Assembly (NCBI GenBank): GCA_947499925.1
Contig: CANMQR010000011.1
Location: 1-10,179, forward strand
Source of the DNA: Neisseriaceae bacterium
GTDB lineage: Bacteria > Pseudomonadota > Gammaproteobacteria > Burkholderiales > UBA11063
Direction of reading: 5' to 3'
DNA length: 10,179 bases
Part shown: positions 4,018 to 8,651 of the stretch, piece by piece
Position numbering within the stretch: position 1 is the first letter of the stretch
Layout: every line of letters begins with the position of its first letter
Notes under the pieces: generated by a model
Told to the model about the DNA's origin: nothing
Database searches by the model: none
The model's input: the letters and a program-made list of their open reading frames with translations, nothing else
Made by a program: the position numbers and the translations under genes

Positions 4018-4803
4018 ATGGAAAAAGCATTTAGGGACGAATTTTTTTTAGCTGGGATTCAACTAGCTGAATTAGCCTCAGATATAAGCCGTAATTATTT
4101 TCGTAAGCCTTTAAATATTGAATCTAAAACTTATGATCATTCACCAGTATCTATTGCAGATAAAAAAATTGAGGAAAGTCTTAGGTCTTGGATCAAAAGT
4201 AATTATCCAAGCCATGGTATAATAGGTGAAGAGTATCTTGATCAAAATAAAAACGCAAAATATACTTGGGTTATTGACCCAATTGATGGAACGGTTGCTT
4301 TTTTGTGTGGTAAACCAACATATACAACACTAATAGCATTACTTGAAAACGATGTGCCACAAATTGGAATTATAGATCAGCCAATACTTGAAGATAGGTT
4401 TGTTGGGGTTAATGGACAAGGTGCGTGGTTAAATGGTAAAAAACTTGTAACTAGCGATATTAAGCTATTAGCAGATGCTAGATTAAATGCTACAACACCA
4501 TATATGTTTAAAACAGATATCGAACAACAAAAGTTTTCTTTATTAAAAGAACAGGTTAAGCTCACAGGTTTTGGAGGAGATGCCTATTCCTATGGCTTGT
4601 TAGCTAATGGACATATTGATTTAATTATGGAAGCTGATTTACATTTTTATGATGTTGCAGCATTGATACCTATTATTGAAGAAAGCGGTGGAGTTATTAC
4701 TGACTGGAATGGTAATAAGATTACCCAGGAGAGTTTTTGTGGTCAGTGTTTAGCATCAGCTAATCAAAAACTACATGAAGCTACACTTAGAATTATTGCT
4801 TAA
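4018..4803 (+). CDS. hisN: Inositol-monophosphatase-family phosphatase, probable histidinol-phosphatase
   Basis: Likely hydrolyses L-histidinol phosphate to L-histidinol, step 8 of histidine synthesis. The fold is the Mg-dependent, Li-sensitive phosphatase family. The 261 aa length is typical. Metal ligands are visible: E71 in GIIGEE, D87 and D90 in WVIDPIDGT (84-92), and D212 in FYDVAALIPIIEESGG (210-225). SPVSIADKKIEE (42-53) is the N-terminal helix motif of the HisN-like branch. The family alone also allows inositol-phosphate, PAP or fructose-bisphosphate phosphatases. The histidinol-phosphate role is inferred because it leads a his operon that otherwise has no phosphatase: the HisB module here lacks the HAD phosphatase domain found in E. 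coli HisB. The ribosome binding site is weak (GTGGT, 4008-4012). It follows an extended -10 promoter, and hisG starts 11 bases downstream. Confidence 0.85.
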   Translation: MEKAFRDEFFLAGIQLAELASDISRNYFRKPLNIESKTYDHSPVSIADKKIEESLRSWIKSNYPSHGIIGEEYLDQNKNAKYTWVIDPIDGTVAFLCGKPTYTTLIALLENDVPQIGIIDQPILEDRFVGVNGQGAWLNGKKLVTSDIKLLADARLNATTPYMFKTDIEQQKFSLLKEQVKLTGFGGDAYSYGLLANGHIDLIMEADLHFYDVAALIPIIEESGGVITDWNGNKITQESFCGQCLASANQKLHEATLRIIA

Positions 4804-4814: not shown

Positions 4815-5693
4815 TTGAATACAAGATTAAGAATTGCGCTACAAAAATCTGGGAAACTATCTGATGGTAGTATTGATTTATTAAATAAATGTAGTTTTAA
4901 TATACGTCCAGCAAAAAATCATTATTTAGTTAAATCAGATGAATTAAATACTGATTTTTTAATGGTTCGGGACGATGATATTCCCGGATTTATTGATAGT
5001 GGCGCTTCAGATATTGGTATTGCTGGAGAGAATCTATTTATCGAATACCAACTTGATAATCCTAATAGTAATATTGAAATAATATCACGCTTAAAATTCG
5101 CTACTTGTAGATTAAGTATTGCAGTTATTAATGATGGTAGTGTTAAATGTCTAAATGATCTAAATGATAAAACTATCGCAACTTCATATCCTTCAACCCT
5201 AAAAGACTTCTTAAATAAGAATAATATTAATGCCAAAATAATCGTAATGCATGGTTCGGTTGAGTTAGCACCAAAGATTGGGATTGCTGATGCTATTTGT
5301 GATTTGGTATCAACTGGTACTACACTTAAAGAAAATGGTTTATTTGAAATGGAAGTAATTCTTAGAAGTGAAGCTGTTTTAATTGGGCGTAAAGGTCTTA
5401 GCTCCGATATCAAAAAGAGAGTTGATGAACTAATATTTAGATTTCAAAGTGTAATTAAAGCAAAAAATAGTAAATATATTATGTTACATATAGATAAATC
5501 AAATGTAGCTAAATTAAAAAACCTACTACCTGGATGTGAAGCTCCAACTACCCTAGCACTTGATGGTTATCCTGACAAAGTTGCGGTGCATGTTGTTTGT
5601 GAGGAAAATGTATTTTGGGATACGATATCAAAACTTAAAAGCATTGGTGCAACTTCTATATTGTCTGTTGCAATTGAAAAGATGATGGAGTAG
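4815..5693 (+). CDS. hisG: ATP phosphoribosyltransferase, long form
   Basis: Condenses ATP with PRPP to phosphoribosyl-ATP, the committed and feedback-controlled first step of histidine synthesis. The 292 aa are the long form, which carries its own C-terminal ACT-like histidine-binding domain (about 222-292), so no HisZ partner is needed. The N-terminal NTRLRIALQKSGKLSDGS is almost that of E. coli HisG. VRDDDIPG (51-58) and the PRPP loop DAICDLVSTGTT (159-170) are present. The C-terminal tail GATSILSVAIEKMME matches the enterobacterial end. The start codon is TTG at 4815, chosen because the conserved N-terminus begins immediately after it and a good ribosome binding site precedes it. It lies 11 bases after hisN and two bases before hisD. 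The hexameric enzyme is expected to be inhibited by histidine, which is family knowledge and not visible here. Confidence 0.96.
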   Translation: MNTRLRIALQKSGKLSDGSIDLLNKCSFNIRPAKNHYLVKSDELNTDFLMVRDDDIPGFIDSGASDIGIAGENLFIEYQLDNPNSNIEIISRLKFATCRLSIAVINDGSVKCLNDLNDKTIATSYPSTLKDFLNKNNINAKIIVMHGSVELAPKIGIADAICDLVSTGTTLKENGLFEMEVILRSEAVLIGRKGLSSDIKKRVDELIFRFQSVIKAKNSKYIMLHIDKSNVAKLKNLLPGCEAPTTLALDGYPDKVAVHVVCEENVFWDTISKLKSIGATSILSVAIEKMME

Positions 5694-5695
5694 GG

Positions 5696-7006
5696 ATGCT
5701 AAAAGTTAATTGGGCCAAATTAAGCTTAAGCGAAAAAAATAGTATCTTATCTAGAGGAAGTAGCCTAGAGAATGATAATAATTTGTCTAATATAGTAAGT
5801 GAAATTATCAATAATGTAAAAGCAAATGGTGATAGCGCACTTTATGAGTATAGTCAAAAATTTGATAGCGTGAAATTAGATAGTCTTCTTGTGACTAAAG
5901 AGGAGTACCTAGCTGCTGATAGTCTCGAACAACATTATAAAGATGCAATTACTAAGGCTTATGAGAATATTAGTCATTATCATAATATAAGTAAGCCAAA
6001 AGAATTTTCGTATACCAAAGATGGAATAGTACTGGGTAAAATATATCGCCCAATTGAGAAGGTTGGTTTATATATCCCCGGTGGTACTGCAACTCTTGTA
6101 TCAACGCTAATGATGCTAGCAATTCCAGCAAAAATTGCGGGGTGTGAGGACAAGATATTAGTAACGCCACCGATGAAAGACGGTAGCATATCTCCTGCTA
6201 TTTTATTTGCAGCAAATTTGTGTGGAATTGACAAAATCTACAAAATTGGTGGAGCTCAAGCTATTGCGGCACTTGCTTATGGTAGCAAGTCTATTCCGAA
6301 AGTTCATAAGATATTTGGACCTGGTAATAAATACGTTACTGAGGCGAAGTTACAAGTATCAGTAGGCAAAAGTATGACAGCTATTGATATGCCTGCAGGC
6401 CCTTCTGAAGTGTTGGTTATTGCTGATACAAATGCAATACCCGAGTTTGTCGCAAGTGACTTACTTGCCCAAGCTGAACATGATATTGATGCCCATGTTG
6501 TACTAGTAACGCCAGATCAAGATTTGGCGGATAAAGTATTGTCACATGTATTAATTCAAAAAAATCAATTAGCAAGACGTGAAATAATAGATAAGTCTTT
6601 AGCTAAAAGTGTGGTTGTAATAGCTAAGGATATTGATGAATGTTTTGAAATATCAAATATTTATGCTCCAGAACATTTAATCCTTCATTTGGATAATGCA
6701 ATGGATTATCTGAAACAGGTTAAAAACGCAGGTTCTGTGTTTGTTGGTAAATGGTCTCCTGAATCAGCAGGAGATTATTCTAGTGGAACTAATCATGTAT
6801 TACCAACGTATGGATATGCCAATATGTATAGTGGACTAGATGTAATTGGTTTTATGAAATCTATATCATTTCAAGATTTAAGTCCTCAGGGTCTTAAAAT
6901 GCTAGGCTTAAGTATAGAGAATTTAGCAACATTAGAAGGGCTTGATGCTCATAAAAATGCGGTTAGTATCAGACTAGATCACTTTAAAAAGGTAGAAAAT
7001 GTCTAA
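5696..7006 (+). CDS. hisD: Histidinol dehydrogenase
   Basis: Zn-dependent homodimeric enzyme that oxidises L-histidinol to L-histidine in two NAD-dependent steps, the last reactions of the pathway. The length is 436 aa, the usual size. The zinc ligands known from E. coli fall at identical numbers: Q259 and H262 (LLAQAEHD), D360 ([12 protein letters not shown]) and H419 (LDAHK). The catalytic pair E326-H327 is in [15 protein letters not shown] (123-132), [12 protein letters not shown] (185-196) and the FGPGNKYV region (207-214) form the conserved NAD-binding and substrate core. It starts two bases after the hisG stop, with GGAG inside the end of hisG as ribosome binding site. Its last eight bases overlap the start of the hisC/hisB fusion gene, so translation is probably coupled. 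Confidence 0.97.
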
Positions 7007-8651
7007 TTGGTTACAACAAATTACACGCCCTGAAATTTGGGCAATGAAAGGCTATAGTTCAGCTCGTTCTGAAATGGCAGACTTTGCCGGAATGATACAG
7101 CTTGATGCTAATGAAAATCCATTTCTACCATACCCAATGTCAAAAGAAGTGCATCAACTAAATCGTTATCCTGAACCGCAGCCAAAAGCTGTTATCTCAC
7201 GTTTAGCAGCAATTTATGGGGTACATAAAGACCAAGTGCTTGTTGCTCGTGGGATGGATGAAGTTATGGATTTACTAGTACGGGTATTTTGTACGCCGTA
7301 TAAAGATAGTGTTTTATTCACGCCTCCAACCTATGGCTATTATCAAGTTGCAGCTGATATTTCTGGAATTGGTATTGTAAAAGTTAATCTAGAAGATGAT
7401 TTTAGTCTGGATGCTGATAAACTAATTAATATAGGGCGAGACAAAGTAAAAATAGTATTTTTATGTACTCCGAATAACCCAACTGGGAATATTATTGATA
7501 TAGCAGGCATTGAGAAAATTGCCCTCAATATGCCAAATAGTATTATAGCAGTAGATGAAGCGTATATGGAATTTGCCGATGCGCCATCGGCAGTTAGTTT
7601 ATTAAATAAATACCCCAATATGGTCGTTATGAGAACACTGTCGAAAGCTTATGCTTTTGCTGGGGTTAGAGTTGGTACATTATTAGCTAGTAACGAGATT
7701 ATTAAATTAATTAGTAAGGTAATTGCCCCATACCCAATTCCTGTTCCATCGATAAATCTTATTATTCAAGCATTATCCCCATTTGGTTTAGAAGTGGCAA
7801 ATAGTAATATTGAGGTGATAAAAAAAGAGCGTGAGCGGATGTATCAAGAGTTATCTAAAGTTTCAGGCATTCATGTTTATAAGAGTCAGGCTAATTATTT
7901 ATTAATCAAAGTTTCTGAAGCCAGTGAGGTTTATCAACATTTCTTGTCGCGTGGAATTATTATTCGGAATCGTAGTCGTGATATTCCTAACACTATAAGA
8001 ATCTCTATTGGTACGCCTTTGGAAAATAATCTAGTATTACGAGCTTTTGGGGTAGATATTAAAGAATATCTTGTTAGCGAACGAACTGCTGCAATTGTTA
8101 GAAAAACCAATGAAACGGATATATTGGTTAGGGTTAATTTAGACAAAAAAGAGCCAATTAAAATTAATACTGGAATTGGTTTTTTTGATCATATGCTGGA
8201 ACAACTAGCCAAGCATGGTGGCTTTAGTTTAGAGCTAAGTGCTACAGGTGATACGCATATTGATTATCACCATACAGTTGAAGATGTAGCGATTTCATTA
8301 GGTCAAGCACTGAAAAATGCACTAGGAGATAAGCGCGGAATTAATCGCTATGGATTTGTATTACCAATGGATGAAGCTAATGCAGCTGCTAGTATTGATT
8401 TAAGTGGGCGTGGGGTTTTGGTGCTTAGGGCTAATTTCCCAACGCCTTTAATTGGCGACTTCCCCATTGAATTAGTAGAACATTTCTTTTTAAGTTTTTC
8501 TGATAAACTTGAAGCCGCAATTCATCTATCAGCAACAGGGGAAAATGCTCACCATATGGTTGAAGGCTTATTTAAGGCTTGTGCTAAAGCACTAAACCAA
8601 GCGATAAAAGAGACAAGTGACGATATTCCATCAACAAAAGGTTCAATATGA
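6999..8651 (+). CDS. hisCB: Fused histidinol-phosphate aminotransferase / imidazoleglycerol-phosphate dehydratase (HisC-HisB)
   Basis: A 550-aa bifunctional protein for steps 6 and 7. The N-terminal part (about 1-350) is HisC, a PLP aminotransferase. It has LDANENPF (35-42), CTPNNPTG (156-163), VDEAYMEF (185-192), the PLP lysine K216 in TLSKAYAFAGVRVG, and the RISIGTPLEN end (334-343). After a short linker (about 351-360) comes a complete HisB dehydratase (about 361-550). Its metal-binding groups are FFDHMLEQ (H398), HHTVED (H424, H425, E428), VEHFFLSF (H494) and HHMVEGLFKA (H518, H519, E522), and it ends with STKGSI as IGPD proteins do. All catalytic residues I can check are intact, so both activities are expected. 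There is no internal methionine or ribosome binding site near the junction, so no separate HisB is likely. AAGG lies six bases before the ATG. The gene overlaps hisD by 8 and hisH by 4 bases. In enterobacteria HisB is instead fused to a HAD phosphatase. Confidence 0.95.
   Translation: MSNWLQQITRPEIWAMKGYSSARSEMADFAGMIQLDANENPFLPYPMSKEVHQLNRYPEPQPKAVISRLAAIYGVHKDQVLVARGMDEVMDLLVRVFCTPYKDSVLFTPPTYGYYQVAADISGIGIVKVNLEDDFSLDADKLINIGRDKVKIVFLCTPNNPTGNIIDIAGIEKIALNMPNSIIAVDEAYMEFADAPSAVSLLNKYPNMVVMRTLSKAYAFAGVRVGTLLASNEIIKLISKVIAPYPIPVPSINLIIQALSPFGLEVANSNIEVIKKERERMYQELSKVSGIHVYKSQANYLLIKVSEASEVYQHFLSRGIIIRNRSRDIPNTIRISIGTPLENNLVLRAFGVDIKEYLVSERTAAIVRKTNETDILVRVNLDKKEPIKINTGIGFFDHMLEQLAKHGGFSLELSATGDTHIDYHHTVEDVAISLGQALKNALGDKRGINRYGFVLPMDEANAAASIDLSGRGVLVLRANFPTPLIGDFPIELVEHFFLSFSDKLEAAIHLSATGENAHHMVEGLFKACAKALNQAIKETSDDIPSTKGSI

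Follow-up and report, generated by a model that had tools for sequence, protein, structure and literature searches.

The 10,179-nucleotide stretch of DNA analysed here (the window; contig CANMQR010000011.1 of assembly GCA_947499925.1, from a Neisseriaceae bacterium) carries a histidine biosynthesis cluster in the order hisN-hisG-hisD-hisCB-hisH-hisA-hisF, in which a single gene, hisCB, encodes both the aminotransferase HisC and the dehydratase HisB. The bacterium is AT-rich and belongs, by inference, to the genus Aquella. The fused gene and its parts are:

6999..8651 (+): hisCB, HisC-HisB fusion; open reading frame of 550 codons from ATG to TGA, matching PF00155 and PF00475 and above the cut-offs of TIGR01141 and NF002111
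6999..8048 (+): HisC (histidinol-phosphate aminotransferase) domain, residues 1-350; TIGR01141, and AlphaFold model matching HisC crystal structures (E 3e-32)
8049..8078 (+): joint, residues 351-360; lies between the edges of the two NCBIfam models and has no start codon
8079..8648 (+): HisB (imidazoleglycerol-phosphate dehydratase, IGPD) domain, residues 361-550; NF002111 and PF00475, matching solved IGPDs with E down to 1e-49
7644..7646 (+): codon of K216, presumed lysine for binding pyridoxal 5'-phosphate (PLP), in the motif TLSKAYAFAG; aligned to E. coli HisC (1fg3)
within 8190..8564 (+): codons of the Mn ligands H398, H424, H425, E428, H495, H518, H519 and E522; ligands as named for MtHISN5 in the available part of PMC10978614

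A first-pass annotation, made from the letters alone, had proposed a complete HisC followed by a complete HisB in one uninterrupted frame with about 10 linker residues, and both points held. The Pfam domains PF00155 (residues 32-345, 181 bits versus a cut-off of 19.7) and PF00475 (residues 391-532, 198 bits versus 27) were found in this order, and the NCBIfam equivalog models TIGR01141 for HisC (residues 10-350, 351 bits versus 276.55) and NF002111 for HisB (residues 361-550, 251.5 bits versus 231) both passed their cut-offs, leaving residues 351-360 between them. Codons 342 to 375 contain no in-frame ATG, GTG or TTG. Translation of a separate HisB could therefore not begin at the joint, and we ruled out an internal start on this basis. 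The joint spans 5-14 residues in 118 of 120 fused relatives and 57 and 69 residues in the remaining two, as measured with window pieces cut at residues 352 and 359, a cut that fixes the window's own value.

All 16 of the catalytic and metal-binding residues checked are present in HisCB, as the annotation had expected, and in 120 of 120 fused relatives: Y57, N160, D186, Y189, S215, K216, R224 and R334 in HisC, and the eight ligands listed above in HisB. We take the roles of the eight HisC residues, including the PLP lysine, to be those of the E. coli enzyme to which HisCB was aligned. The Mn-ligand roles (PMC10978614, in the part available) were transferred on the basis of motif, of spacing and of an alignment with solved structures of plant IGPDs. 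An AlphaFold monomer model (24-row alignment) had a predicted local distance difference test score (pLDDT) of 87.6 and a predicted template modelling score of 0.74; its best fold matches are solved HisC structures, and only HisC-type folds occur among the 50 PDB rows listed. Judged from these residues, both halves of HisCB look active. The fusion also joins steps 6 (HisB) and 7 (HisC) of the pathway, as first proposed, unlike HisNB; the haloacid dehalogenase (HAD) family is absent from the matches listed for the protein.

Within the genus the fusion is constant. PF00475 was present in 16 of 23 same-genus genomes, always in frames of 540-570 codons, and HisC and HisB share one frame at each of the 15 other genus loci as they do in the window, while in 18 genomes sampled from the order's other families the HisB frames measure 195-325 codons and none is fused. 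One of the genus genomes with the fusion consists of one contig, 2,820,660 bases long, and is apparently the complete Aquella oligotrophica chromosome. Several genus genomes (for example at L132, L135 and L138) have their his genes spread apart by other DNA, with HisC and HisB still joined. The fused HisC is the sole HisC above the TIGR01141 cut-off in nine of ten genus genomes searched (G008 has a second), and most cells of the genus, if they make histidine, must therefore use it. HisD and HisB co-occur in the 14 of 23 genus genomes searched for HisD (10 with both, 4 with neither); genomes G002, G003, G005 and G021, which are 87-94% complete, lack both genes and are probably those of histidine auxotrophs.

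The annotation had also suggested a database search for single chains with an aminotransferase and an IGPD domain, and the best 120 of 7893 protein relatives of HisCB all have both. Their source names include Aquella oligotrophica, Legionella dresdenensis, Neisseriales, Burkholderiales and gammaproteobacterial metagenome-assembled genomes (MAGs). On the alphaproteobacterial side the names given are Hellea balneolensis, Litorimonas, Robiginitomaculum and Maricaulaceae. Of the 80 named-genome loci retained by our scan, ten encode both domains in a single frame, in one case with HisN in the middle; a Bacteroidales MAG (L080:3-2264) has one 754-codon frame encoding HisC, a HAD-type HisN and HisB. 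Across 370 genomes sampled widely from the class, the window's own was the only unbroken fusion among the matches listed, at most three candidates being scored per genome, so that a fusion would rank at the top but could be missed outside the candidates. Thirteen of the 370 have hisC and hisB as neighbours in the same frame, separated by 3-81 bases and 1-3 stops, and thus as two separate genes. A PF00475 search of 397 phylum genomes listed best matches only, so no fusion count was drawn from it. HisB also lies in open frames of 585-658 codons whose listed match is HisB alone, one in the same order (G287:C1) and others in G449, G586, G640 and G612; these may be other fusions or chance GC-rich frames. 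Overall, the HisCB fusion is rare across families and constant in some clades.

Histidine biosynthesis is a textbook case of gene fusion, to which HisCB adds a hisC fusion of consecutive steps found in several lineages. The 2007 review of his fusions, PMC1963479, in its available part describes five of them (hisA/hisF, hisIE, hisHF, hisNB and hisIED) and names eight fused his genes, hisC and hisG not among them, and the available parts of PMC10138114 and PMC7284861 give seven fused his genes without hisC. A hisC fusion is likewise unmentioned in the accessible portions of PMC8305728, PMC10138114, PMC7284861 and PMC3896937. Among further sources, each available in part, the histidine fusions named in an archaeal fusion survey (PMC11237513) are others, 'hisC-hisB' in PMC6432763 is the name of an operon, and PMC7311316 concerns gene fusions in general. 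We found no description of a HisC-HisB fusion in the literature searched, which covered few subscription journals. The UniRef label of the Aquella and Legionella proteins is multifunctional fusion protein, and some Joint Genome Institute names carry both activities; the fusion is thus new to the literature searched, but not to automatic annotation. Sources often label HisCB proteins as HisC alone or HisB alone, which makes them an annotation trap. The initial remark that this is not a standard his fusion stands for the histidine fusion literature examined, but the fusion is no oddity of one genome, being present in all 16 HisB-bearing genus genomes and in several lineages.

Comparison with known systems sets HisCB apart from each. 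It resembles HisNB of the E. coli type in that the HisB half falls in the same sequence group, is fused at its N-terminus and lies in a hisGD..HAF operon, but the partner in HisNB is a HAD phosphatase, whereas in HisCB it is the aminotransferase HisC. The HisNB model NF003937 is the top HisB-side model on HisCB, yet it matches positions 158-354 only, with 272 bits versus the 443 needed, and its HAD N-terminus has no match, so HisCB falls outside HisNB. Like stand-alone HisC proteins (TIGR01141), HisCB has a full-length domain with the PLP lysine and substrate residues, but it has no stop after HisC and continues into HisB. The Brevundimonas-type HisB, which goes by the name HisB in its listed NCBI entries, shares a HisC-like N-terminal domain fused to HisB and the same place in the operon; unlike HisCB, it has neither the NNPTG motif nor the PLP lysine, which is missing from 120 of the 120 proteins listed, and a separate HisC is present in the nine genomes searched. 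The fusions hisIE, hisHF (HIS7) and hisIED (HIS4) also join enzymes of the same pathway, some of consecutive steps, but do not include hisC (PMC1963479, available part).

We then placed the fusion on gene trees. The HisB domain groups with HisNB and HisCB (74 rows, Shimodaira-Hasegawa-like approximate likelihood ratio test (SH-aLRT) support 97), and separately from ten standalone HisB proteins found in the order and class (98), which makes the HisB half one of the kind seen in HisNB operons and not of the kind usual in the order. The HisB tree has 92 rows; dropping four without a usable HisC domain gave an 88-row HisC+HisB tree, in which L014 was counted as HisNB on its HAD motif. There HisNB operons enclose the main HisCB clade (SH-aLRT 99 for its 42 rows), the two enclosing branches having support of 99 and 98, and a Bacteroidales HisCB (L006) sits among Bacteroidota HisNB. 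Two actinobacterial fusions, L018 (a long branch) and L026, fall together with standalone HisB proteins of actinobacteria (96). These placements argue that the HisCB fusion arose more than once. In a five-gene tree the alphaproteobacterial HisCB clade stands beside HisNB and the window's clade inside it, but an approximately unbiased (AU) test did not reject a single clade of all HisCB-derived rows (p=0.594; the tree constrained to that clade was better by 6.8 log units), and we therefore do not trust this split.

We consider it highly probable that HisCB is a working bifunctional enzyme of a gamma-type compact operon, with HisC and HisB joined where HisN sits in HisNB. The HisB half would dehydrate imidazole-glycerol phosphate to imidazole-acetol phosphate (step 6), which the HisC half would transaminate (step 7). 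The compact gamma-type operon (hisGDC-NB-HAF) would have been acquired by transfer, or retained instead of the one usual in the order, HisC and HisB would have become joined at the point that HisN occupies in HisNB, and the inositol monophosphatase (IMPase)-type hisN at the start of the cluster would supply histidinol-phosphatase.

Several results weigh against this interpretation. Each of the 60 PDB sequence matches listed (of 91) covers one half only, with no solved structure of a fused protein among them, and the AlphaFold model, a monomer, is uninformative on assembly. A tree with HisNB as one clade was not rejected by AU tests on either HisC+HisB (p=0.087) or five genes (p=0.246), which leaves an origin by loss of HisN unproven. 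On HisC+HisB the first AU test used 67 rows (21 left out) and the fair test 66 (22 left out), and L007 and L013 were excluded from the operon tests as long branches; the first test (p=3e-5) was set aside as unfair, as it forced the Bacteroidales L006 out of the clade. The IMPase-type HisN scores about 1 bit under the TIGR02067 cut-off, and the scores in five other Aquella genomes are 239-272 bits. No HAD-type HisN domain was found in hisCB among the Pfam and NCBIfam matches listed, a search that did not extend to the rest of the genome.

As to how the two halves came together, our confidence is evenly divided on whether HisCB arose from hisC and hisNB in a gamma-type operon by deletion of the HisN domain. 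The nesting of the 42-row HisCB clade within HisNB operons agrees with such a deletion, as do the Bacteroidales frame with HisN still between HisC and HisB and the joint of L006, which by eye resembles the end of HisN in a protein placed inside Bacteroidota HisNB. The window's own joint, however, has no clear HisN remnant, and the AU tests allow HisNB as one clade. The reverse, in which HisCB dates back to the origin of the compact operon and a later insertion of hisN between HisC and HisB gave HisNB, we regard as unlikely. It can draw on the unrejected monophyly of HisNB, on the Gemmatimonadales HisCB branching first and the alphaproteobacterial HisCB being sister to HisNB plus the window's clade in the five-gene tree, and on the entry of hisN into an already formed operon described in the available part of PMC1963479. 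It is at odds with the position of HisCB inside HisNB in the HisC+HisB tree and with that of the window's clade inside HisNB in the five-gene tree, although there it stands beside AT-rich rows, possibly by composition; L007 is also a long branch. Somewhat less likely still is that the stop between two neighbouring genes was lost by chance and that the resulting fusion, neutral in effect, was retained without benefit. The 13 class genomes with adjacent hisC and hisB in one frame show neighbours of this kind, and the actinobacterial L018 and L026 look like independent fusions, but the genes are joined in 16 of 16 HisB-bearing genus genomes, even where his genes are scattered, and the fusion is maintained in many alphaproteobacterial genomes, whereas one would expect a joint of no selective value to have split occasionally. 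Finally, although the draft genome from which the window comes is incomplete (58%, in 186 contigs), we give practically no credence to a sequencing or binning artefact joining two separate genes. Four database proteins of the same length with both domains at 90-92% identity, fusion in all 16 genus genomes with HisB and the joint without a start codon speak against it, and the genome in a single 2.82 Mb contig refutes it for the genus.

The alphaproteobacterial relatives showed us what has become of the fusion. A search at E 1e-70 gave matches in 31 of the 80 genomes from the order to which Hellea belongs, and the 25 classified by form comprise 11 with an intact-looking HisCB, nine with a degenerate HisC fused to HisB, three with HisD and HisB in one frame and two with HisB behind about 220 residues of unrecognised N-terminal frame. 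The degenerate HisC lacks the PLP lysine in nine of nine cases (L158-L166), and these proteins match the Brevundimonas HisB of about 474 residues, whose own AlphaFold model was poor (pLDDT 61.8) and was left unused. Among the best 120 of 5356 matches to the Brevundimonas type (P0121-P0240), the position of the PLP lysine holds leucine in 118, arginine in one and a gap in one, and N160 is lost in all 120, while the HisB ligands are retained in at least 119. Each of the 14 genomes whose fused HisC is degenerate or missing has a separate HisC above the cut-off, whereas four of the six intact HisCB genomes searched (of 11) have no other HisC. In the operon tree the degenerate (four of nine used), HisD-HisB (three) and extended (two) forms all fall inside the alphaproteobacterial HisCB clade (98).

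Substitution patterns point to a real purifying constraint on the dead HisC domain, weaker than that on its HisB. The closest pair had 0.073 nonsynonymous (pN) and 0.312 synonymous (pS) differences per site in the dead domain, compared to 0.029 and 0.240 in the HisB part, and the median pN/pS over 36 pairs was 0.55 for the dead domain versus 0.18 for HisB of the same proteins. Intact alphaproteobacterial HisCB gave 0.52 for HisC versus 0.38 for HisB, with synonymous sites near saturation. In our reading, the presence of a second HisC allows the fused one to lose its catalytic function, although the domain is not discarded immediately. The HisD-HisB frames without HisC between (L237, L238 and L239, in G840, G855 and G836) have 634-705 codons and occupy two places in the operon tree. 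HisD and HisC share an open frame of 789 codons at L202 (G490) and one of 579 codons, cut by the contig end, at L217 (G700); HisD-HisC fusions may exist too.

What the fusion probably brings is that the two enzymes are kept close together and in a fixed 1:1 ratio. Channelling of imidazole-acetol phosphate is possible but unsupported, and it cannot alone maintain the fusion, because the joint persists where the fused HisC has no PLP lysine and a separate HisC is present. The functional form of HisC is a dimer. IGPD assembles into a 24-mer with 432 symmetry and has its N-terminal sheet on the outer surface (PMC10978614, available part), and a HisC joined there would therefore lie outside the shell; the HisC domains of HisCB, fused to the N-terminus of HisB, may thus decorate the 24-mer paired as dimers. 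A more speculative proposal, which we doubt, is that HisC joined to HisB has a second, non-catalytic role, as a shell aiding assembly or control, and that gain or loss of HisN by the compact operon took place at the joint between them, which would be a hinge giving rise to HisCB, HisCNB, HisNB and HisDB. If true, such a role would explain both why the fusion survives scattering of the operon and why the Brevundimonas type retains a HisC domain without the PLP lysine beside another HisC. The natural series of intact, dead-HisC and HisC-less forms within one clade makes channelling, stoichiometry and assembly testable against one another.

The other genes of the cluster surround hisCB closely:

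4018..4803 (+): hisN, IMPase-type histidinol-phosphatase, not the HAD type of HisNB; PF00459, TIGR02067 at 274.0 bits (cut-off 275.15)
4815..5693 (+): hisG, long form; PF01634 and PF08029
5696..7006 (+): hisD, overlapping the hisCB start by 8 bases; PF00815, 540 bits
8648..9259 (+): hisH, overlapping the hisCB end by 4 bases (ATGA); TIGR01855
9237..9959 (+): hisA; TIGR00007
9960..10179 (+): start of hisF, cut by the window end; recognised by eye

The IMPase-type hisN is a candidate for the histidinol-phosphatase of the cluster. Best TIGR02067 scores were 239-274 bits in six Aquella genomes, 231-306 bits in six alphaproteobacterial HisCB genomes and 141-236 bits in eight HisNB genomes; the ranges touch and two of the 20 genomes pass the cut-off, giving weak support to an exchange of phosphatase. 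Away from the cluster, a methyltransferase-like gene (PF08241) lies at positions 304-999 on the reverse strand, divergent from a gloB-like gene at 1001.

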